From NCBI RefSeq assembly GCF_900110255.1, contig NZ_FODD01000007.1, positions 124,001-188,000 on the forward strand: a stretch of DNA of 64,000 bases, in the 5' to 3' direction. The notes under the pieces are model-generated. The model did no database searches and was not told the DNA's origin. It was given only the letters and a program-made list of their open reading frames with translations. This document shows positions 20,480 through 44,216 of the stretch, piece after piece (position 1 is the stretch's first letter; every line of letters starts with the position of its first letter). This DNA comes from Actinacidiphila rubida (GTDB lineage: Bacteria; Actinomycetota; Actinomycetes; Streptomycetales; Streptomycetaceae). The position numbers and the translations under genes are program-made.

Positions 20480-20486
20480 TCTCGGG

Positions 20487-20560
20487 TGCGCCGCCAGGGA
20501 CTCGAACCCCGGACCCGCTGATTAAGAGTCAGCTGCTCTAACCAACTGAGCTAGCGGCGC
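20487..20560 (-). tRNA. tRNA-Lys (CTT), copy 1
   Basis: 74 nt with a 7-bp acceptor stem (GCGCCGC / GCGGCGC), discriminator A, D-loop AGTTGGTTA, anticodon loop CTCTTAA giving anticodon CTT, and a TTCGAGT T-loop. CCA is not encoded. TATGAT on the minus strand about 15 bases upstream is the likely -10 box. The sequence appears identical to the copies at 24651 and 37249. Confidence 0.96.
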
Positions 20561-24650: not shown

Positions 24651-24724
24651 GCGCCGCTAGCTCAGTTGGTTAGAGCAGCTGACTCTTAATCAGCGGGTCC
24701 GGGGTTCGAGTCCCTGGCGGCGCA
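24651..24724 (+). tRNA. tRNA-Lys (CTT), copy 2
   Basis: Same 74-nt cloverleaf as the minus-strand copy at 20487-20560, with anticodon CTT and discriminator A. With its terminator it forms a near-perfect inverted repeat of roughly 113 bp with copy 1, on either side of the subtilase gene. Confidence 0.96.
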
Positions 24725-24731
24725 CCTGAGA

Positions 24732-34671: not shown

Positions 34672-37092
34672 CTAGCGGAAGTGCGGGTTGGGGGCCGCGG
34701 GGCCGGCGGCCGCCAGGACGCGGGGGAGTTCGCTGCGCCGTTCGCACAGCAGCCGCCGCGCCGACCGCGCGGTGGTGAGCGCCGAGAGGGCGGGCAGGGC
34801 CGGGAGCGCGTGCAGGGCCGGGGACACCAGGCCCAGGGACAGGCGGGCCACCCCGGAGACCGGGGGCGCCCCGGCGGCGGCCCGGTGCAGGACCTCCGCC
34901 AGCAGGAAGTCGACCGGGCCGCGCCCCGACTCCCGGTCCCAGCGCAGCAGATCGAGCGTGAGCCCGTCCGTGCCCCACGGCACCAGCACGGCCAGCGCGC
35001 ACACCCGCTCGTGGCGGTCCCGGCACTCGCCGACCACGCAGTCCCCGTCCGCCGTGTCGCCGAGCCGCCCGAGGCCCGGCCCCCTGCGGTGCCGGCGTCG
35101 GCCGGCGTGCCGCCACGCGTCGGCGAGCTGGGCCAGCTGCGGCCACTCCCGCCCGTCGACGTCCTGCTGCCTGCGCAGCACCACCCGGTAGCCGGCCCCG
35201 GCCATCTCCTCGCGCACCCGGGCGAGTTCCGCCGGGAGCGGCCCCGTCCCCAGCAGCTGCTCCTCGTCGGAGGCGACCGCGTGCAGGCCCGCGGCGCGGT
35301 ACTCCGCGGTCCCCGCCTCGCCCGCGTACACCGCGGCCGGCGCCCACGCGTGGCGGCGGGCCGTGTCGAGCCAGCCCGCGACGGCGGCGGCCCGCGCCGG
35401 GGCCGGGCCGAGCGGGTCGCCGTGGGCCAGCGCGACGCCGTTGACGACGCGGTAGACCACCGCCGCCGCGCCGTCGCCGCTCCAGCACACCGACAGGTCG
35501 CGGCGCAGCGCGAAGTAGCCGAAGGAGTCCGCTGCGCCGTACGCGTGCAGCAGCACTCGCAGCCGCCGCTCGTCGGCGGGCGCGAGGCGGGCCAGACCGG
35601 CCGGCGGGCGGAAGAACACGACGAGCACCACCAGCATCAGCGCGACGCTCAGCAGGTTGATCGCCAGGTCGGTCCACGCGGGCACGTCGACGCCCGGCAG
35701 CGAGAACAGGCTGGAGACGGTCAGCACCCGCACCGACGCGTAGTGGGCACTGGCCCCCCACGTGCTCGGCGCCGCCCGGTCCGTGGCGTACACCAGCAGG
35801 GTGCCGAGGCCGACCGCGGCCACCGCCCCGGCCAGCAGGGTGACCAGGCCCAGCGCCACGTTGCCGCGCGCGCCGCGGACGTTGAAGTGCGTGCGCGACA
35901 CCAGCAGGGCGGCCAGCAGCAGCAGCGTCAGCACCAGCGACACCCAGTTGACGGGGTGCCGGTGGGCGTGCGGGACGGACGCCACGTCACCGGCGACGAC
36001 CAGCAGGTACGCGGCGGTCAGCACCACCGTGAGGATCCACGCCGCACGCTTGCGCCGGCGCAGGCTCACCGACAGCACGAACGCCAGCGCGGCGCCGGTG
36101 AACCCGGGGCTGAGCAGGAACGGCGTCACGTACTCGCCCTCGGTCGCGGCCCGCACGTGCTCGCGGAACGGGGCGACGAGCCCGGTCACCAGGTCCACCA
36201 CGGCCGCCACCCGCAGGTACCAGACGGCGGCGGCCGCGCCGGGGCCGCGCAGCGGCCCGAGGACCTGGGCCAGCCGCACCTCCAGCCGGGACGGCGGCAC
36301 CTCGACCACGGTGGGCGCGCCGCGCGGCGGCGCCTTCGTCAGCGACACCGGGTTCGGCGCGCCGGCCACCGCGTCCATGAACCGCGTCTTGGCCGCCGCG
36401 AACCGCCGGTGCACCCGCTCCTCGCGGCGCTCCGCCCGCGCCATCCGCCGGGGCCGCGAGGTGTAGCGCCAACGCGCCCACGGGCTGCCGGGCCGGGCCA
36501 GCCGGACCGCGCCCACCACGGCGAGCAGCGGCACCATGACGCCGAGCAGCCCCGTCCACACCTTGCCCTTGATCAGGCACAGCACCACGAAGCCGGCGAG
36601 CACGGCGGCCACCGCGTACGTCACCCACGAGGTCCCGCCGACACCGCCGCCCAGCGGCGCGGCGCCGAACAGCACCAGCCCGATGATCGCCACCGCCAGG
36701 ATGACCGCGTCGACGGACTGGCGGCCCTCCTCGCGCCAGTAGACGTCCTCCAGGTGCAGCACCAGCGCGAACTCGTCCAGCACCAGGCCGCAGCCGATTC
36801 CGAAGAGCACCGCGAGCAGGTCGTGGACGAGCGGGCCGCCGCGCACCGCGAACGAGCCGATGCCGCCGACGAACATCATCACCTGGCCGAACACCACGTG
36901 GTGGATGTGCAGCCCGCCGGGCTCGACGTTCCCCGGCCACCAGGACACCCCGCGCCGGATCATCCGGGTGCTGAACCGGATGAACAGGAACGAGGCCAGC
37001 AGCCCGAGCAGGAGCAGGAGGAGCTGCCGGCGGCCGGTGGACGCCTCGATCCGCACCTGTACCTGGTCCACGTACGTCGGCCAGTGCCCCAT
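34672..37092 (-). CDS. MprF/LPG-synthase-type membrane aminoacyltransferase with extra N-terminal membrane domain
   Basis: 806 residues. Residues about 20-215 form a first membrane domain (IRFSTRMIRRGVSWWPGNVEPGGLHIHHVVFGQ, VLDEFALVLHLEDVYW). Further membrane segments follow (about 330-500), then a soluble DUF2156/LPG-synthase C-terminal domain (about 520-790; YGAADSFGYFALRRDLSVCWSGDGAAAVVYRVVNGVALAHGDPLGP). The C-terminal domain transfers an amino acid from tRNA to phosphatidylglycerol, which lowers membrane charge and gives resistance to cationic peptides. No lysyl-tRNA synthetase domain is fused, unlike LysX. A tRNA-Lys gene lies 157 bp upstream, probably by chance. Confidence 0.83.
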   Translation of the reverse strand: MGHWPTYVDQVQVRIEASTGRRQLLLLLLGLLASFLFIRFSTRMIRRGVSWWPGNVEPGGLHIHHVVFGQVMMFVGGIGSFAVRGGPLVHDLLAVLFGIGCGLVLDEFALVLHLEDVYWREEGRQSVDAVILAVAIIGLVLFGAAPLGGGVGGTSWVTYAVAAVLAGFVVLCLIKGKVWTGLLGVMVPLLAVVGAVRLARPGSPWARWRYTSRPRRMARAERREERVHRRFAAAKTRFMDAVAGAPNPVSLTKAPPRGAPTVVEVPPSRLEVRLAQVLGPLRGPGAAAAVWYLRVAAVVDLVTGLVAPFREHVRAATEGEYVTPFLLSPGFTGAALAFVLSVSLRRRKRAAWILTVVLTAAYLLVVAGDVASVPHAHRHPVNWVSLVLTLLLLAALLVSRTHFNVRGARGNVALGLVTLLAGAVAAVGLGTLLVYATDRAAPSTWGASAHYASVRVLTVSSLFSLPGVDVPAWTDLAINLLSVALMLVVLVVFFRPPAGLARLAPADERRLRVLLHAYGAADSFGYFALRRDLSVCWSGDGAAAVVYRVVNGVALAHGDPLGPAPARAAAVAGWLDTARRHAWAPAAVYAGEAGTAEYRAAGLHAVASDEEQLLGTGPLPAELARVREEMAGAGYRVVLRRQQDVDGREWPQLAQLADAWRHAGRRRHRRGPGLGRLGDTADGDCVVGECRDRHERVCALAVLVPWGTDGLTLDLLRWDRESGRGPVDFLLAEVLHRAAAGAPPVSGVARLSLGLVSPALHALPALPALSALTTARSARRLLCERRSELPRVLAAAGPAAPNPHFR

Positions 37093-37237: not shown

Positions 37238-37248
37238 GCGTGCTCAGG

Positions 37249-37322
37249 TGCGCCGCCAGGGACTCGAACCCCGGACCCGCTGATTAAGAGTCAGCTGCTC
37301 TAACCAACTGAGCTAGCGGCGC
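37249..37322 (-). tRNA. tRNA-Lys (CTT), copy 3
   Basis: 74 nt, apparently identical to the copies at 20487 and 24651: same acceptor stem, CTCTTAA anticodon loop and discriminator A. The following spacer and hairpin differ more, so this is the oldest split of the three or has recombined. Confidence 0.96.
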
Positions 37323-37377: not shown

Positions 37378-38046
37378 TCAGGCCGTTCCAGGGGCGCTGA
37401 CCAGGACCGGAGCGGTGTTCTCCGGCCCCGCGGCGGCGTTGCGCGCGGCCCGCACGCACGCCCACAGCAGCACGTCGGCGCCGGGCAGCCACGGCGAGCG
37501 GGTGTCGGGCGCCACCACCCAGCGCGAGGCGGCGTCCGTGCCGCGCCGGCCGTCCGGCGGGCCGTAGAGCGCCGGCAGCGTCACCGCGTCACCGGCGCCG
37601 TGGCACATCAGCGGCGGCACCCGGTCCGCCCACTCCTCCCAGGCCAGCAGCGAGGGCAGCCGCTGCGCGGTGCCCGGCGCCACCAGCAGCAGCACCCGGC
37701 CGCGGTGCACGGCCGCCGGGCCGCTGCCCGGGCCGGACGCCCACAACTGCTCCAGCAACCGCCGCCCGAACAGCGCCGGCACGCTCACGGCGTCGAACGC
37801 GATCCCGCACGGCAGCACGCTCGGCGTGCTGGGGCGCGCCGACCAGAGCGCCGCCACGCTGCGCGGGAACGCGCTGGCGGAGGCGAGCCACGCGGCGCCC
37901 TCCGAGGTGACGTACGCGGTGTGCTGCCGCCGGAGCGCGTCGCTGACGGCGAAAACGGTGTCCACGCCGTCCACGGTGCGCACACCGTCCGTGGTGGTCA
38001 CCCTGTCCACGCTCTCCACGCTTTCCACGGCCTGCGATTCATCCAT
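37378..38046 (-). CDS. Actinobacterial hypothetical protein, possibly prim-pol-like
   Basis: 222 residues. A variable N-terminus repeats VESVDRV/TVDGVDTV units; the body (LPCGIAFDAVSVPALFGRRLLEQLWASGPGSGP) resembles the short proteins labelled bifunctional DNA primase/polymerase N-terminal in streptomycetes. The metal-binding carboxylate cluster needed for polymerase activity is not evident, so an enzymatic role is doubtful. Start ATG38046 is one of two closely spaced ATGs. It lies alone 55 bp from the tRNA. Confidence 0.55.
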   Translation of the reverse strand: MDESQAVESVESVDRVTTTDGVRTVDGVDTVFAVSDALRRQHTAYVTSEGAAWLASASAFPRSVAALWSARPSTPSVLPCGIAFDAVSVPALFGRRLLEQLWASGPGSGPAAVHRGRVLLLVAPGTAQRLPSLLAWEEWADRVPPLMCHGAGDAVTLPALYGPPDGRRGTDAASRWVVAPDTRSPWLPGADVLLWACVRAARNAAAGPENTAPVLVSAPGTA

Positions 38047-38323: not shown

Positions 38324-38704
38324 CTAGGGGGCGACTCCGCCGCCCTTGAGCAGGTCCTCGCCGTACTCGACCATCTTCTGCGCGTAGTCCTCGGTCCAGC
38401 CGGCGCGCTCGGCGATGGAGCCGTGGCTCAGCCGGTCGAAGCGGCGCGGGTCGGCCAGCTGCGCGGCGGCCACCGCCTGGAACTCCGTGGCCCGGTCGGC
38501 CGCGGCGCGGAACGCCAGCGCCAGTTCGGTCGCCCGGTCGAGCAACTGCAGCGGGTCGTCCATCGACTCCAGGTCGAAGAAGCGGTCGCGGTCGTCCCCG
38601 GTGGACGCCCCCGGTTCGAACAGGAGCGGGGCCGGGCGCTTCGGCCGCTCCGGCTGCTCCGGCCGTCCTTCGTGCCGCCGGTCCGCGGGCTGCGGCTCGG
38701 ACAT
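38324..38704 (-). CDS. Conserved hypothetical protein, 126 residues
   Basis: The N-terminal 35 residues are Pro/Arg/Glu-rich and likely disordered. The remainder is helical (DDPLQLLDRATELALAFRAAADRATEFQAVAAAQLADPRRFDRLSHGSIAERAGWTEDYAQKMVEYGEDLL). No family is recognised. A short helix-turn-helix-like stretch (HGSIAERAGWTEDYAQKMVEYG) is possible. It follows the nuclease-helicase operon on the same strand after 84 bp and may be its last member. Confidence 0.6.
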   Translation of the reverse strand: MSEPQPADRRHEGRPEQPERPKRPAPLLFEPGASTGDDRDRFFDLESMDDPLQLLDRATELALAFRAAADRATEFQAVAAAQLADPRRFDRLSHGSIAERAGWTEDYAQKMVEYGEDLLKGGGVAP

Positions 38705-38788: not shown

Positions 38789-40198
38789 TCAGGGGCGCCA
38801 GGCCACCCGGTGCTCCGCGAGGTGCGCCAGCACCGCGTGGTTGGCCTCCCAGCCGTCGGGGAACTTCACGGTGACCCCGAGCTGCACCGGCTCGGACGAC
38901 GGGTGCTCGTCCAGCAGGTCGGCGACGCCCGCGCGGCACACCACGACGCAGGCGTGCCGGTGCCGCGACGCCAGCACGCACAGCCGGCCCGTCTCCAGGT
39001 GGAACGCGGTGGCGTCCGGCCGCCCCGACAGCGGGTGCAGCACCACCGTGACGTCGAACTCCCGCCCCTGCAGCCGGTTCGCGGTGTCCACCGCGACCCC
39101 GCCCGCGACGCTCGCCGGCACCCCCAGCGCGGCCAGCGCCGCGCGTACCGCCGCCGCCTGGTCGCGGTGCGCGGTGCCGACCGCGATCCGGTCCGCGGTC
39201 AGCGGCGCCGGCCGCGCGTCCGCGCCCGAGTACGTCAGCCCGCCGCGGTCCAGCAGGCGGCGCACCACCGCGGCCACCGCCCGCACGGCCTCCGGGTCGG
39301 TGCGCGGGGTGTGCCGGGCCGGCAGCTCCAGCAGCCCCCAGCCGCTCTCCGCCGCCTCGTCGAGCACGCGGTCCGGTCCGCCGCCGTCCCCCCGCACGCC
39401 GAACGCCAGCCGCCGCTCGCCCGGACCGGTGCCGCTGCGGAACGGCGTGTACGGGTAGAACGCCCGCGACACCAGCGGCGCGGCGGACGCCGGCAGCCGC
39501 CACGACACCGGCAGCCGGTGCTGCGGCAGGCCCGGGTTGTGCGCCAGCAGCGTCACCACCGCGCTCGCCGACGGGTCGTAGCTCAGCCCTGCCCACTGGT
39601 CGGCGCCCACCACGCTGAACGGGTCGAGCTGCCCGGGGTCGCCGACGAAAAGCGCCCGCTCGAAGAGCCCGGCCACCTGCAGCAGCGCGTCAGAGCGCAT
39701 CTGGTACGCCTCGTCGACGATCGCGTGCCGCCACGGCTCGATGTCCTTGACGTACGCCCACTTCGCGGCGGTCGCCAGCACCACGGCCCGGCCCCGCAGT
39801 TCGGCCACCGACGACGACTTCGCGATGCTCTCGTGCCGGTCGAGCAGCGGGTCGGGCGGCGAGTCCGCGCCGTGCAGCCGGCCGACGGGCAGCTCGGGGT
39901 CCGCGGTGGCCAGCCGGTCCGCCAGGTCGTCGACCTGCGCGTTGGTCTGCGCCACGATCATCAGTGACTCGCCGGCCGCGGCCAGTTCGCGGGCCGCCCG
40001 CACCACGAGCGTCGACTTGCCCGCGCCCGGCGGGGAGTCCACGACGACCCCGCGGGCCGTGCCGTGCAGGGTGCTGTCCAGGATCGCCGCGGTGGCCTTC
40101 GCCGCCTCGGCCGCCGGGTCGAACACGGTGCCGGGTCGCGTGCCGGGCGCCGTGCCGGGCGCCTCCGCGCCGGCGCGCGCTTCGGGCAGGGACGTCAC
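38789..40198 (-). CDS. SF1 (Upf1/Dna2-like) helicase subunit
   Basis: 469 residues from GTG40198, overlapping the previous stop by 4 bp. SF1 motifs appear in order: I VVDSPPGAGKSTL, Ia IVAQTNAQVDDLADRL, II AIVDEAYQM (DEAx-Q form), III LFVGDPGQLDPF, IV SWRLPASAAPLVSRAFYP, V DTANRLQGREFDVTVVL, VI ASRHRHACVVV. The DEA-x-Q and GDP-x-QLxP wording is that of SF1B (Upf1, Dna2) helicases. At 469 residues it is little more than the motor core. It probably moves along DNA for the nuclease encoded two genes upstream (inference). Confidence 0.82.
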   Translation of the reverse strand: MTSLPEARAGAEAPGTAPGTRPGTVFDPAAEAAKATAAILDSTLHGTARGVVVDSPPGAGKSTLVVRAARELAAAGESLMIVAQTNAQVDDLADRLATADPELPVGRLHGADSPPDPLLDRHESIAKSSSVAELRGRAVVLATAAKWAYVKDIEPWRHAIVDEAYQMRSDALLQVAGLFERALFVGDPGQLDPFSVVGADQWAGLSYDPSASAVVTLLAHNPGLPQHRLPVSWRLPASAAPLVSRAFYPYTPFRSGTGPGERRLAFGVRGDGGGPDRVLDEAAESGWGLLELPARHTPRTDPEAVRAVAAVVRRLLDRGGLTYSGADARPAPLTADRIAVGTAHRDQAAAVRAALAALGVPASVAGGVAVDTANRLQGREFDVTVVLHPLSGRPDATAFHLETGRLCVLASRHRHACVVVCRAGVADLLDEHPSSEPVQLGVTVKFPDGWEANHAVLAHLAEHRVAWRP

Positions 40199-41844
40199 AG
40201 GTGGTCCTCCGCGGTGACGGGGTCGGGAGCCTCGGGTACGGCGGCCGCCGCACCCGGCGGGCCGCCGTGGGTCCACGGCGTCGCCTCGGGATCGGGCAGT
40301 GAGGGGCCGCCGCGCGGCTCGTGCTCGAAGAACGTGAACGTCACCAGGTCTCCCGGGACGGGCACCGAACCCTCCTTGGGCACGCGGCCGTTGCCCATGC
40401 CGCCGGTCAGGCGGACGGTGACGAGGCGGCCGGCCGCGGACCTACCGCCGGACGCGCCGGTCGAGCCGGACCCGTCGGCCGCGTCGGACCGGTCCGCCCC
40501 GCCGTCGTCGGGGTTCCTGTCGCGCCCGGCCCCCGGCTCGGGGTCCCGGTCCACGGACACCAGCTCCGCGGGCTGCGCGGAACGCGCCTCCGGCACCGCC
40601 CGGAACGCCCGCGCGCCCGGCTCGGCCTGCGGCAGATCGTCGGTCTTCACCGTCACCAGCGGGCGCGGCATGGGCCGGCGCCCCTCGGAGAACGCCTCCT
40701 CGACCCCGCGCACCACGCCGCTGAACGCCTCGCCGGACAGCCGCCGCGACGCCATGGCCAGCGGGTCGTCCAGCGCCTCCTGGGCGGACAGCCGCGCCTG
40801 CGCGGTCTCGCGCCCGGCGAGCTTCTGCGCCGCCGCGATCGCGTCGTCCCGCCGCGGCTGCGGCGGCTCGCCCGCCTTCACCCGGTCGTGGTGGCCGGTG
40901 AACGACCAGCGGTCCCGCTTCCAGCGCTCCTCGACGTGCGCGCCCTCCGGCAGCGCACGCAACAGGTCCAGGCCGTGCCACACGTCGTCCCACACCGGCC
41001 GCAGTTGCGATTCCACCAGCCGCCGCAGCTCCGCCTGCGCGCGCGCGACACCCGAACCGGCCTTCCGTGCCGCGTCGAAGCGGGCCAGGGCGGGCGCCAG
41101 CAGCCGGTTGTCGAAACGGGGGTCGGTCGCGGGGCCGGCCGGCGGGCTGACGAGCAGCCCGTCGGGCGTGCGGCCCGTCTCGGCGCGGGCCGCGGCGGCG
41201 GCACCGTCCGTGCCGGGCGGCGGGTCGATCCAGCCGAGCAGCGCGCCCAGGTGCTGGTCCTCCAGCGTGCTCTGCCCGGTCGTCCAGTGCCGGGCCAGCA
41301 GGTCGGTCATCGCCAGCAGCAGCGAACTGCCGGGGGTGCGGGCCCGCTCGGCGTAGTGGGTGAGCCAGCGGCCCAGCAGCGGCAGCGGCGCCGGCACGGG
41401 ATACGCGGCGTCCGGATCGTCGGAGGTGCGCAGGAAACGCGTGGACCGGCCGATCAGCCGCACGTACTCCACCGTCGCCGCGTTGGGCACGACGATCTGC
41501 AGCGCGTCCGAGCAGAGTTGTGACTCCTCGCGGTTGCGGGTGGCCGGCTCGGTCTCCGTCCGCTCCCCGTACGCGTCGAGCAGCGGCAGCATGATCCCGG
41601 CGAGCTCGGCGAAGAACGCGAACCGCAGGTCGCGGTCGAGCGGCTGGGGCACCACCAGCAGCCGCGGCGCGTCCCGTTCGGTACCGACCAGCGCGCCCAG
41701 CGGCGCGCCGGCCTCGCCCGCGGTGGTCAGCACCGCCAGCACCAGCGGGCGGGCGGACAGCCGGCGGTGCAGCACGGTCGCGCCGGGCACCGCCCGCCCG
41801 CCGGCCACCGCCTCGGCCCTGGCCAGTGCCTGCAGCACGCTCAC
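40195..41844 (-). CDS. Unrecognised middle protein of nuclease-helicase operon
   Basis: 549 residues; no family recognised. The N-terminal 250 residues look globular and helical (LRFAFFAELAGIMLPLLDAYGERT, LARHWTTGQSTLEDQHLGALLGWIDPPPGTDG). A charged helical middle (AQAELRRLVESQLRPVWDDVWHGLDLLRALPEG) precedes an acidic Gly/Ser/Asp-rich linker (about 450-485). A short beta-rich end follows (RLVTVRLTGGMGNGRVPKEGSVPVPGDLVTFTFFE) that could be an OB- or SH3-like barrel. Both ends overlap neighbours by GTGA, so it is made in fixed ratio with nuclease and helicase and may bridge them (inference). Confidence 0.7.
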   Translation of the reverse strand: MSVLQALARAEAVAGGRAVPGATVLHRRLSARPLVLAVLTTAGEAGAPLGALVGTERDAPRLLVVPQPLDRDLRFAFFAELAGIMLPLLDAYGERTETEPATRNREESQLCSDALQIVVPNAATVEYVRLIGRSTRFLRTSDDPDAAYPVPAPLPLLGRWLTHYAERARTPGSSLLLAMTDLLARHWTTGQSTLEDQHLGALLGWIDPPPGTDGAAAAARAETGRTPDGLLVSPPAGPATDPRFDNRLLAPALARFDAARKAGSGVARAQAELRRLVESQLRPVWDDVWHGLDLLRALPEGAHVEERWKRDRWSFTGHHDRVKAGEPPQPRRDDAIAAAQKLAGRETAQARLSAQEALDDPLAMASRRLSGEAFSGVVRGVEEAFSEGRRPMPRPLVTVKTDDLPQAEPGARAFRAVPEARSAQPAELVSVDRDPEPGAGRDRNPDDGGADRSDAADGSGSTGASGGRSAAGRLVTVRLTGGMGNGRVPKEGSVPVPGDLVTFTFFEHEPRGGPSLPDPEATPWTHGGPPGAAAAVPEAPDPVTAEDHL

Positions 41845-43127
41845 CGCCGGTCCCCTCCCTCGGCACCCTCAGCGCCCTTGACGCCCTTGGCACCCTTGAC
41901 GTTTTCTGCGCCCCTGGCTTCCGCGGCGGCGGGCGCGGCCGCGGTCGCGGGCCGGTCCGTGACCGCGGGCTGGCCCGGGATGGCGGGACGGCCGCTGGAG
42001 GGTGCGGCGTCGGCGGGGGCGAAGGACGGCGCGGCGGCCTCCTTGGCGGCGTGCGCCAGGGCCTCGGAGCGCAGGGCGGCGGCGCGGCGCAGGGCCACCA
42101 CGGCCGGATCGGCGGGGTCGCCGGCGGTCCCGGCGGCCGCGGTCAGCACGGCCTCGACGGTGGTCAGTTCGCCGAGGTCACCGCGCAGGGAGCGGCCGAG
42201 GGCCGCCACGTCCTGGGCGGCGAGGGCGCGGGCCCGGCAGTGGAACGCCAGCTCGCAGGTGGACAGGCACTCCGGCGCGTAGGCGGCGGGGACCGCGTCG
42301 ACCGCGGACGCGAGCTCCCCGGCCGGACGGGTCGCGTCGCCGTCGGCGTTCCGCACCAGATCGAAGGTGGTGCCCTCCGGGAGTGTGGCGGTGATCTCCT
42401 CGATCCGGGTGAGCCGGGCGAGCTGGCGCCGGGTCACGGCGGCCTGCTTGCGGACGTCCAGCCACTCGGCGGCCGGCTGGTTCGAGAAGTTACGCGGGCA
42501 CACCAGCAGGACGCTCCGCCGCGCCCTCCCGGGCGTGACGGCGTCCAGCGCCAGGACGTACACCGCGGACTGGCGGGCGGCGGCGCCCACCTTCTGCGGG
42601 TCCGCGGCCCCGTCCAGGATCGGGAACGACTTGATCTCCACGACGGTCCAGCCGCCGTCGGGCGCGACGGCCACCGCGTCGGGCTCGAGGTAGGCGGTGG
42701 AGCCGGCCACCTCCAGCGCGAGCAGCGGGTGGTCGAGCAGCGTCCACGCGCCCGGCGGTGCCTCGGCGAGCGCCAGCCGGGTGCGCGCGGCCCGCCCCTC
42801 CGGGCCGGCGGCCGTCAGGTCGGGAACGTGCGCGGGCCCCTCGGCGCCGAGCAGCCGCAGCAGTTCGCCGCAGTCGTCGGCCTTGACCCGCGCCTCGAAG
42901 GCGTGGCCGCGTGAGAAGGCGAACCGGGACTGGCCGAAGGGCGCCGGAGCGCCGAGGACTCCGGCGACGGCGCCCTTGTCGACGCCGGCCGCGTCCAGCA
43001 CGGCGCGGCGGCGGCAGCCGGGGTTCGCGGCCAGGGCGGCCAGCGCCCGGGCGTCGAGCGGGCGGGGTGAGGTGGCCGGGCCGCGCAGGGCGGCCAGCCG
43101 CTCCCGCAGGAGGTGCGTAGTGCTCAC
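41841..43127 (-). CDS. Fe-S RecB-like (PD-(D/E)XK) nuclease, Dna2/AddB/Cas4-type
   Basis: 428 residues. Cys38 lies in NPGCRRRAVLDAAG; His75 and Glu78 are in SRGHAFEAR; Asp150 in LEPDAVAV; Glu164-Ile-Lys166 in VVEIKSFPI; Gln186/Tyr190 in RQSAVYVL. Cys287, 291 and 297 sit in ECLSTCELAFHC. One cysteine before and three after a RecB nuclease core is the 4Fe-4S staple of Dna2, AddB and Cas4, although the last three are spaced C-x3-C-x5-C instead of the usual C-x2-C-x5-C. The tail from about 350 is Ala/Lys/Gly-rich. Predicted DNA end-processing nuclease, working with the helicase in the same operon. Confidence 0.83.
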   Translation of the reverse strand: MSTTHLLRERLAALRGPATSPRPLDARALAALAANPGCRRRAVLDAAGVDKGAVAGVLGAPAPFGQSRFAFSRGHAFEARVKADDCGELLRLLGAEGPAHVPDLTAAGPEGRAARTRLALAEAPPGAWTLLDHPLLALEVAGSTAYLEPDAVAVAPDGGWTVVEIKSFPILDGAADPQKVGAAARQSAVYVLALDAVTPGRARRSVLLVCPRNFSNQPAAEWLDVRKQAAVTRRQLARLTRIEEITATLPEGTTFDLVRNADGDATRPAGELASAVDAVPAAYAPECLSTCELAFHCRARALAAQDVAALGRSLRGDLGELTTVEAVLTAAAGTAGDPADPAVVALRRAAALRSEALAHAAKEAAAPSFAPADAAPSSGRPAIPGQPAVTDRPATAAAPAAAEARGAENVKGAKGVKGAEGAEGGDRR

Positions 43128-43148: not shown

Positions 43149-44216
43149 TCAGGACATCCGGCCGTGTCCGGCGTGTTCCCCGCCGCGCGCCACGGCCGCG
43201 GACGACAGGTCCGCGTCGTCGATGCCGTCCGTTGTGTCCGTTGTGTTGATTCCGCCCGTTTCCGCCGCACGGGAGGCGTCGTCGGCGCTCCCCGGTGCGG
43301 AGCCGGACCCGTCGGCGGAGGCGTCCCCACCGGTGTGGGCGTCCGCGCCCTTCCCGGGCGCGCGGCGCGGGCCGGGGACGGTCGCGGACAGGCCGCCGGC
43401 GCCCGCCTCGGCCGGGGCCACCCGCGGCGGGCGGCCGAGCGCCACGCCCGCACGGGCGCGCACCACGTCGACCAGGCGCAGCGCCTGCGGGGCGAGCAGG
43501 AAGCCGAGGAGCATCACGGTGCCGCCGGCCAGCACGTCCAGCAGGTAGTGGTTGGCGGTGCCCATCACCACGAGCGCCGTGATCAGCGGGTAGAGCACGC
43601 CCAGCACCCGCACCGCGGTGTGCCGCCCGTAGCGGAACAGCATGATCCCGCACCACAGCGACCAGCCGAAGTGCAGGCTGGGCATCGCCGCGTACTCGTT
43701 CGTGAGGTGGCCGAGGCCGCGCGGCGCGCTCGCGTCGGTGCCCCACCAGCCGTAGGAGCCGTACTGCGCCATGGTGTCGATGAAGCCGTGGCCGCCGCCG
43801 ATGAGGCGGGGCGGCGCGGTCGGCAGGAGGGTGAAGCCGATCAGGCCGATCAGCGTGGAGATCAGCAGCCACGTGCGGGCGTTGCGGTACGCCGTCGGCC
43901 TGCGCAGCCACAGCCAGACCAGGATCCCGGGTGTCACGATGTAGTGCAGCGACGCGTACGCGAAGTCCGCCGGCACCCCGAGGAACGCGTGGTCGGTGAA
44001 GAGCTGGTTGAAGAAGTGCTCGGGGTCCAGGTGCAGCAGCTGCTCGAGGTGGAGAATGTCCGCGCCGTGCTCCACCGCGTCGTCCACGTCACCGCGCACC
44101 AGCAGCCGCGCCCCGGAGTACAGGGCGTATATGACCGCGACGAGCGGCAGTTCGGTCCACCAGCGGAGCCTGCCGCGATAGGCGGCGGCGCGCGGCGCGG
44201 TGGCGGTGATCGTCAT
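43149..44216 (-). CDS. PAP2-superfamily membrane phosphatase
   Basis: 355 residues with about six membrane segments between 23 and 245. The phosphatase motifs are AMPSLHFGWSLW (motif 2) and TANHYLLDVLAGG (motif 3, catalytic His and Asp); TAPPRLIGG stands near motif 1. The layout resembles actinobacterial inositol-phosphorylceramide-synthase-like PAP2 proteins, which act on lipid phosphates at the outer membrane face. The last 110 residues are disordered Gly/Ser/Asp-rich. The gene ends 21 bp before the nuclease gene on the same strand, so it may lead that operon. A TetR gene diverges from it. Confidence 0.82.
   Translation of the reverse strand: MTITATAPRAAAYRGRLRWWTELPLVAVIYALYSGARLLVRGDVDDAVEHGADILHLEQLLHLDPEHFFNQLFTDHAFLGVPADFAYASLHYIVTPGILVWLWLRRPTAYRNARTWLLISTLIGLIGFTLLPTAPPRLIGGGHGFIDTMAQYGSYGWWGTDASAPRGLGHLTNEYAAMPSLHFGWSLWCGIMLFRYGRHTAVRVLGVLYPLITALVVMGTANHYLLDVLAGGTVMLLGFLLAPQALRLVDVVRARAGVALGRPPRVAPAEAGAGGLSATVPGPRRAPGKGADAHTGGDASADGSGSAPGSADDASRAAETGGINTTDTTDGIDDADLSSAAVARGGEHAGHGRMS

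Follow-up and report, generated by a model that had tools for sequence, protein, structure and literature searches.

On the minus strand of the window, that is, of the whole 64,000-nt stretch of DNA analysed (Actinacidiphila rubida, GCF_900110255.1, NZ_FODD01000007.1, positions 124,001-188,000 of the forward strand), lie three consecutive genes for a nuclease-like (NUC), a middle (MID) and a helicase-like (HEL) protein (Table 1). Their chaining by 4-bp GTGA overlaps, claimed in the original prediction, was confirmed at both junctions, and the overlap of NUC with MID recurs in most relatives, where it comprises 4 bp or, in most Streptomyces, 10 bp. Fixed-ratio coupling of the three products may be inferred from such overlaps but has not been shown. 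The upstream gene of a PAP2-family phosphatase is syntenic with this cassette but was judged not to be part of the system. No function could be assigned to the small downstream neighbour (SMALL), whose synteny is limited to loci of the Streptomyces type. Further downstream stands a gene for an SCO3374-like protein with a marginal match to Prim-Pol (PRIM), syntenic with the cassette in Streptomyces; both matches remain under the curated cut-offs. The source genome (9.0 Mb, Streptomycetaceae) gave one good match each for HEL and NUC, and the nearest named relatives in the genome scan were Streptomyces acidipaludis and Actinacidiphila.

Three tRNA-Lys(CUU) genes, identical across all 76 bases, were also registered within 17 kb of each other in the window. 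Two of them, in opposite orientations, flank a subtilase-family gene, while the third adjoins a lysyl-phosphatidylglycerol synthase-like gene and is a source of the expected substrate of its product.

Table 1. Features of the locus and its surroundings, in window coordinates
Feature	Position	Strand	Length	Remark
tRNA-Lys(CUU)	20485-20560	-	76 bases	beside subtilase-family gene
tRNA-Lys(CUU)	24651-24726	+	76 bases	beside subtilase-family gene
Lysyl-phosphatidylglycerol synthase-like	34672-37092	-		LPG_synthase_C, tRNA-synt_2_TM
tRNA-Lys(CUU)	37247-37322	-	76 bases
SCO3374-like (PRIM)	37378-38046	-
SMALL	38324-38704	-	126 aa
HEL	38789-40198	-	469 aa	GTG start
MID stop/HEL start overlap	40195-40198	-	4 bp	GTGA
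MID	40195-41844	-	549 aa
NUC stop/MID start overlap	41841-41844	-	4 bp	GTGA
NUC	41841-43127	-	428 aa
PAP2-family phosphatase	43149-44216	-		PAP2_3 E=5e-63

Predicted properties of the three proteins

Nothing significant was found for NUC in Pfam, NCBIfam or PADLOC, and since sequence and profile searches of NUC and MID against the PDB returned only low-complexity or chance matches, both proteins had to be compared by their folds. The AlphaFold model of NUC (pLDDT 87.8, pTM 0.79), built from a shallow alignment of 39 rows of relatives, retrieved MGME1, Cas4 SSO0001, ACE1 and RecE from the PDB by Foldseek at E<=0.001, followed by Dna2, type I Cas4 complexes, Exo5 and AdnA. Based on the model, and without any biochemistry, one can predict a PD-(D/E)XK fold of the RecB/Cas4/Dna2 type, the absence of which would have refuted the original prediction. 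Loss of the catalytic residues in orthologues would have done the same. The predicted active site comprises D150, E164-I-K166 and Q186xxxY190. Of 119 sequences, 117 have D150, 113 have E164 and 112 have K166; outside one derived clade the Asp/Glu/Lys set is conserved. Of the four cysteines Cys38 is preserved in 118 of the 119 sequences (one has a gap there), and Cys287, Cys291 and Cys297 in all of them. The latter three follow the pattern C-x3-C-x5-C in 118 sequences and C-x2-C-x5-C in only one (by eye L225, the most divergent member of the alignment). The four positions given in the original prediction for the staple of NUC are correct, and the residues are conserved, but their spacing is x3-x5 and not the x2-x5 of Dna2, AddB and Cas4. 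An arrangement with a single Cys ahead of the core and three behind it is the "iron staple" of Wilkinson et al. (PMC7430649), and the four residues are predicted ligands of an Fe-S cluster, though the cluster itself has not been shown.

HEL matches AAA_11 and AAA_12, and its profile found in the PDB DNA2 (5eax, E=3e-12), SMUBP-2 (2e-11) and Upf1 (9e-8); PADLOC gave only partial matches to helicase domains. Across 121 sequences the helicase motif residues that were checked vary little or not at all. Judged by its sequence, HEL is a minimal SF1 helicase core of the Upf1/Dna2 subfamily with intact motifs, in agreement with the SF1B assignment proposed earlier, and from this a 5'->3' polarity is expected. 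Its membership in the UvrD/AddAB/AdnAB group was considered and rejected, as the motors of that group are UvrD-like (SF1A), and the best matches of HEL are AAA_11/12 and DNA2/Upf1.

MID, described before as a protein of no recognised family, has indeed no match in Pfam, NCBIfam or PADLOC. Its model (pLDDT 82.9, pTM 0.80; a shallow alignment of 21 rows) consists of an alpha/beta and helical part of no recognised family up to residue ~300, long helices at 304-370 and a beta-barrel at 373-505; an invariant WTH motif lies near the C-terminus. Foldseek found no full-length match for this model, and nothing at E<=0.001 in the PDB or among viral models. Weak alignments of barrel length were obtained with Upf1 (2xzo, probability 0.57; 9qdq, 0.44). 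The top matches, EmrAB and ferredoxin-reductase, were judged to reflect chance or a generic coil or barrel. In the Dna2 structure the nuclease is followed by a beta-barrel on a two-helix stalk and then by helicase domains 1A/2A (PMC4716839), and in both Dna2 and Upf1-type enzymes barrel and stalk precede motor domain 1A (PMC4716839). In HEL, Walker A begins ~56 residues after the start, so barrel and stalk cannot sit in this chain. Since they stand between nuclease and helicase in Dna2, the gene order NUC-MID-HEL repeats the order of its domains. According to the model MID probably carries the stalk and beta-barrel of the helicase and is not an unrelated subunit, which is inferred without proof.

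Support for this assignment comes from plasmids of Rhodococcus, Mycobacterium and Cellulosimicrobium, where the gene immediately ahead of a HEL homologue encodes a MID-like protein and NUC is not adjacent. The order there is MoxR AAA, DUF2201 VWA, a ~60-aa protein, MID-like and HEL-like; HEL is clearly related to its counterpart (E=8e-50), while the similarity of MID is weak but collinear (254 columns, E=0.001, probability 21%). Cassettes of this MoxR-VWA type were noted on the actinobacterial plasmids L151-L153 and L226-L231, many of which are linear.

Conservation of the gene set and surroundings of its paralogues

The three-gene order, whose conservation across Actinobacteria the original prediction had proposed as a check, was present in 20/20 loci inspected first and, with the exception of two genomes, in all 43 loci with flanks; in these two HEL is located 36-49 kb away, still in the same genome. 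The three ORFs are separate in all loci examined. Searches with NUC and with MID returned exactly the same 70 of 395 genomes of the class, pairwise distance matrices of NUC, MID and HEL correlate with r=0.89-0.94, and dN/dS values against eight near relatives (0.10-0.37) indicate purifying selection. By our own count of the genomes listed, 131 of the 134 from the family have MID, as do 7 of 14 from a second family of the same order. As three genomes of the same family, all of smaller size, have no MID, the cassette genes are not universally essential. In Streptomyces the set is near-universal, single-copy and syntenic; among 80 loci of the Streptomyces type, 64 show the order PAP2-NUC-MID-HEL-SMALL-PRIM, and some of the others may be cut short by contig ends. 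The ranking of the first genome scan was limited to close orthologues from Streptomyces, and a paralogue query served to find more distant relatives. With few candidates scored per genome, the phylum-wide profile search gives too narrow a distribution. As neither phage records nor viral contigs contained relatives, a phage origin was rejected.

Most other cassettes, which are paralogous, have a fourth gene, HYP281, before NUC; it is absent from the genome of the window. In 11 of the 43 flanked loci, including that of the most divergent member L225, the cassette is divergently adjoined by genes of SbcD-SbcC (Mre11-Rad50). In the tree these cassettes form a supported clade plus L225, the position of which is unsure; at least two lineages are involved. 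SbcCD is not found beside the window copy, and SbcD of the same genome is encoded on another contig. Type I Wadjet genes JetABCD also follow the cassette in three of 43 loci, on plasmids NBC_01244 and WAC00288 (L148 and L149) and near a chromosome end (L163); beside the NBC_01244 cassette JetA1-JetD1 were confirmed with PADLOC. The window copy has no JetA-D beside it. In the supported clade formed by L154-158, 160 and 161 the four-gene cassette is kept, but NUC has damaged catalytic residues, with LIR or EIR in place of EIK; where annotated (L157), this cassette adjoins a type III-like restriction-modification pair and a gene of a pPIWI-RE island (Z-domain protein). A separate PDDEXK_1 protein is encoded nearby in L157. 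Local gene calling was crude and served only to pick neighbouring proteins for annotation. Linkage to SbcCD, Wadjet and restriction-modification suggests that the paralogues are frequent in DNA-end and defence contexts, and the window-type copy, with its unrelated neighbours, looks like a housekeeping one. In L163 (5794-8043) the cassette is followed by a helicase of the DEAD/ResIII type that carries helicase-associated (HA) repeats, and the same family occurs in L164 and L165; proteins of this kind are reminiscent of TtrA, a telomere-linked helicase of Streptomyces.

The position of paralogues directly upstream of JetABCD or beside restriction-modification and pPIWI-RE genes, together with the ability of SbcCD to attack DNA ends, leaves some room for an anti-mobile-element module that acts after SbcCD or Wadjet and breaks down foreign DNA that is linear or has been cut, the core copy of Streptomyces being domesticated. 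We consider this unlikely, because nearly all Streptomyces have the window-type copy, which is syntenic, present once per genome and outside any recognisable defence island, Wadjet linkage is restricted to the three loci mentioned, and no PADLOC model (PADLOC 2023) exists for NUC, MID or HYP281. The same near-universal presence in bacteria with linear chromosomes, and paralogues near replicon ends (the linear plasmid of NBC_01244, the chromosome of G048), could be put down to processing of replication forks or telomeres of linear Streptomyces replicons, by analogy with Dna2 acting on flaps. However, the core locus has no terminal position, tap/tpg were not seen linked to it, and the cassette occurs in other families as well (linearity there was not checked), which makes such a specialisation improbable.

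A possible three-part Dna2-like enzyme and its relation to known systems

The reading that we prefer, with a probability of roughly 0.6, is that NUC, MID and HEL form one Dna2-like helicase-nuclease processing DNA ends and made as three polypeptides, by an inferred fission of the Dna2 layout. The "split Dna2-like nuclease-helicase" of the original prediction is thereby supported by the fold of NUC, the conserved residues and the homology of HEL, while the trimer and its role remain unproven: complex formation, the barrel/stalk role of MID, polarity, DNA as the substrate and end resection are all inferred. The least tenable alternative, co-transcription without a single complex, in which an independent exonuclease, an unrelated MID and an accessory helicase (possibly acting on RNA, as Upf1-type helicases can) would serve one pathway, may appeal to the undetectable sequence relation between MID and the middle of TM0106 proteins, to the two genomes with distant HEL and to the clade that keeps its cassette with an inactivated nuclease, but it leaves aside the conserved overlaps, the exact co-occurrence of NUC and MID, their correlated divergence and a HEL devoid of barrel and stalk.

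For a three-polypeptide Dna2-like enzyme one can imagine that overlapping translation makes the parts together, and that MID contributes a novel N-terminal scaffold together with the stalk and beta-barrel missing from HEL. Such an enzyme would be loaded at a DNA end onto single-stranded DNA, HEL, as the RecA1A-2A motor, would translocate with the help of the MID barrel and stalk, and NUC would cut the translocated strand, resulting in ATP-dependent end resection or degradation. The Streptomyces copy may then be a housekeeping end-processing enzyme acting beside AdnAB; in paralogous systems SbcCD might open or clean the ends first, and some of these cassettes may have been recruited to defence loci with Wadjet, restriction-modification or pPIWI-RE. 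Processing of DNA double-strand ends, with paralogues recruited to defence, is in the absence of biochemistry the most likely role. A bolder version, which we put forward only tentatively, holds that the cassette encodes an undescribed actinobacterial resectase of the Dna2 type, a heterotrimer or, where the fourth gene is present, a heterotetramer, which together with SbcCD parallels Mre11-Rad50/Dna2. Anti-plasmid and anti-phage loci would have acquired it repeatedly, and there it would break down DNA that Wadjet or SbcCD has opened. If a three-part Dna2-like enzyme is indeed made, most Streptomyces hold an unstudied second helicase-nuclease besides AdnAB, and with DNA2 split in three, nuclease, barrel/stalk and motor could each be tested for its own role. 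How bacteria may couple recognition of DNA ends to resection or to destruction of foreign DNA is also suggested by the linked genes of SbcCD and Wadjet.

An already characterised repair complex, which would have refuted the original prediction, was not encountered in Pfam, NCBIfam, PADLOC or the literature searched; this non-exhaustive search brought up only single-chain Bad and general reviews, and no earlier description of the cassette. Among known systems, archaeal HerA-NurA also combines a nuclease with a motor and is encoded or acts with Mre11-Rad50 in end resection, but its motor, the hexameric FtsK-like translocase HerA, is not of SF1, and linkage to SbcCD is confined here to the paralogues. 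Cas4, MGME1 and Exo5 share the nuclease fold of NUC, and Cas4 has the four-Cys Fe-S module too, but they are stand-alone or CRISPR-linked, without a MID or HEL partner. AdnAB and AddAB are likewise multi-subunit helicase-nucleases with a nuclease of the RecB family. The plasmid MoxR-VWA cassette shares the adjacent pair, with HEL homologous and MID probably so, but has other partners (MoxR AAA and DUF2201 VWA) in place of an adjacent NUC.

In actinobacterial proteins of the TM0106 family (TIGR03491) RecB-nuclease and helicase are fused in a single chain. HEL aligns with the C-terminal helicase of these proteins (99.5%, E=4e-23), whereas NUC matches them no better than E=0.005, with the Q motif out of register, and MID has no profile similarity to their middle part, which speaks against the barrel/stalk assignment of MID. 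TIGR03491 proteins were found in 59 of 198 genomes of the class. The 16 listed Streptomycetaceae have none, and outside Streptomycetaceae they occur in three of 31 cassette genomes, all three with the four-gene type. Functional replacement would fit their scarcity in cassette genomes, but phylogeny confounds the comparison.

The closest characterised relative of the cassette is the single-chain bacterial DNA2 Bad of Geobacillus stearothermophilus, a 5'->3' translocase/helicase and single-stranded DNA endonuclease (PMC7430649). DNA2 and Bad share with it a RecB-family nuclease of the Fe-S staple type, an Upf1-like SF1B motor and the order of nuclease, barrel/stalk and motor, the barrel/stalk of MID being inferred. 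What is one polypeptide there is divided between three genes here, and the cassette differs also in the extra unrecognised ~300 aa of MID, in its C-x3-C spacing and in having paralogues linked to SbcCD.
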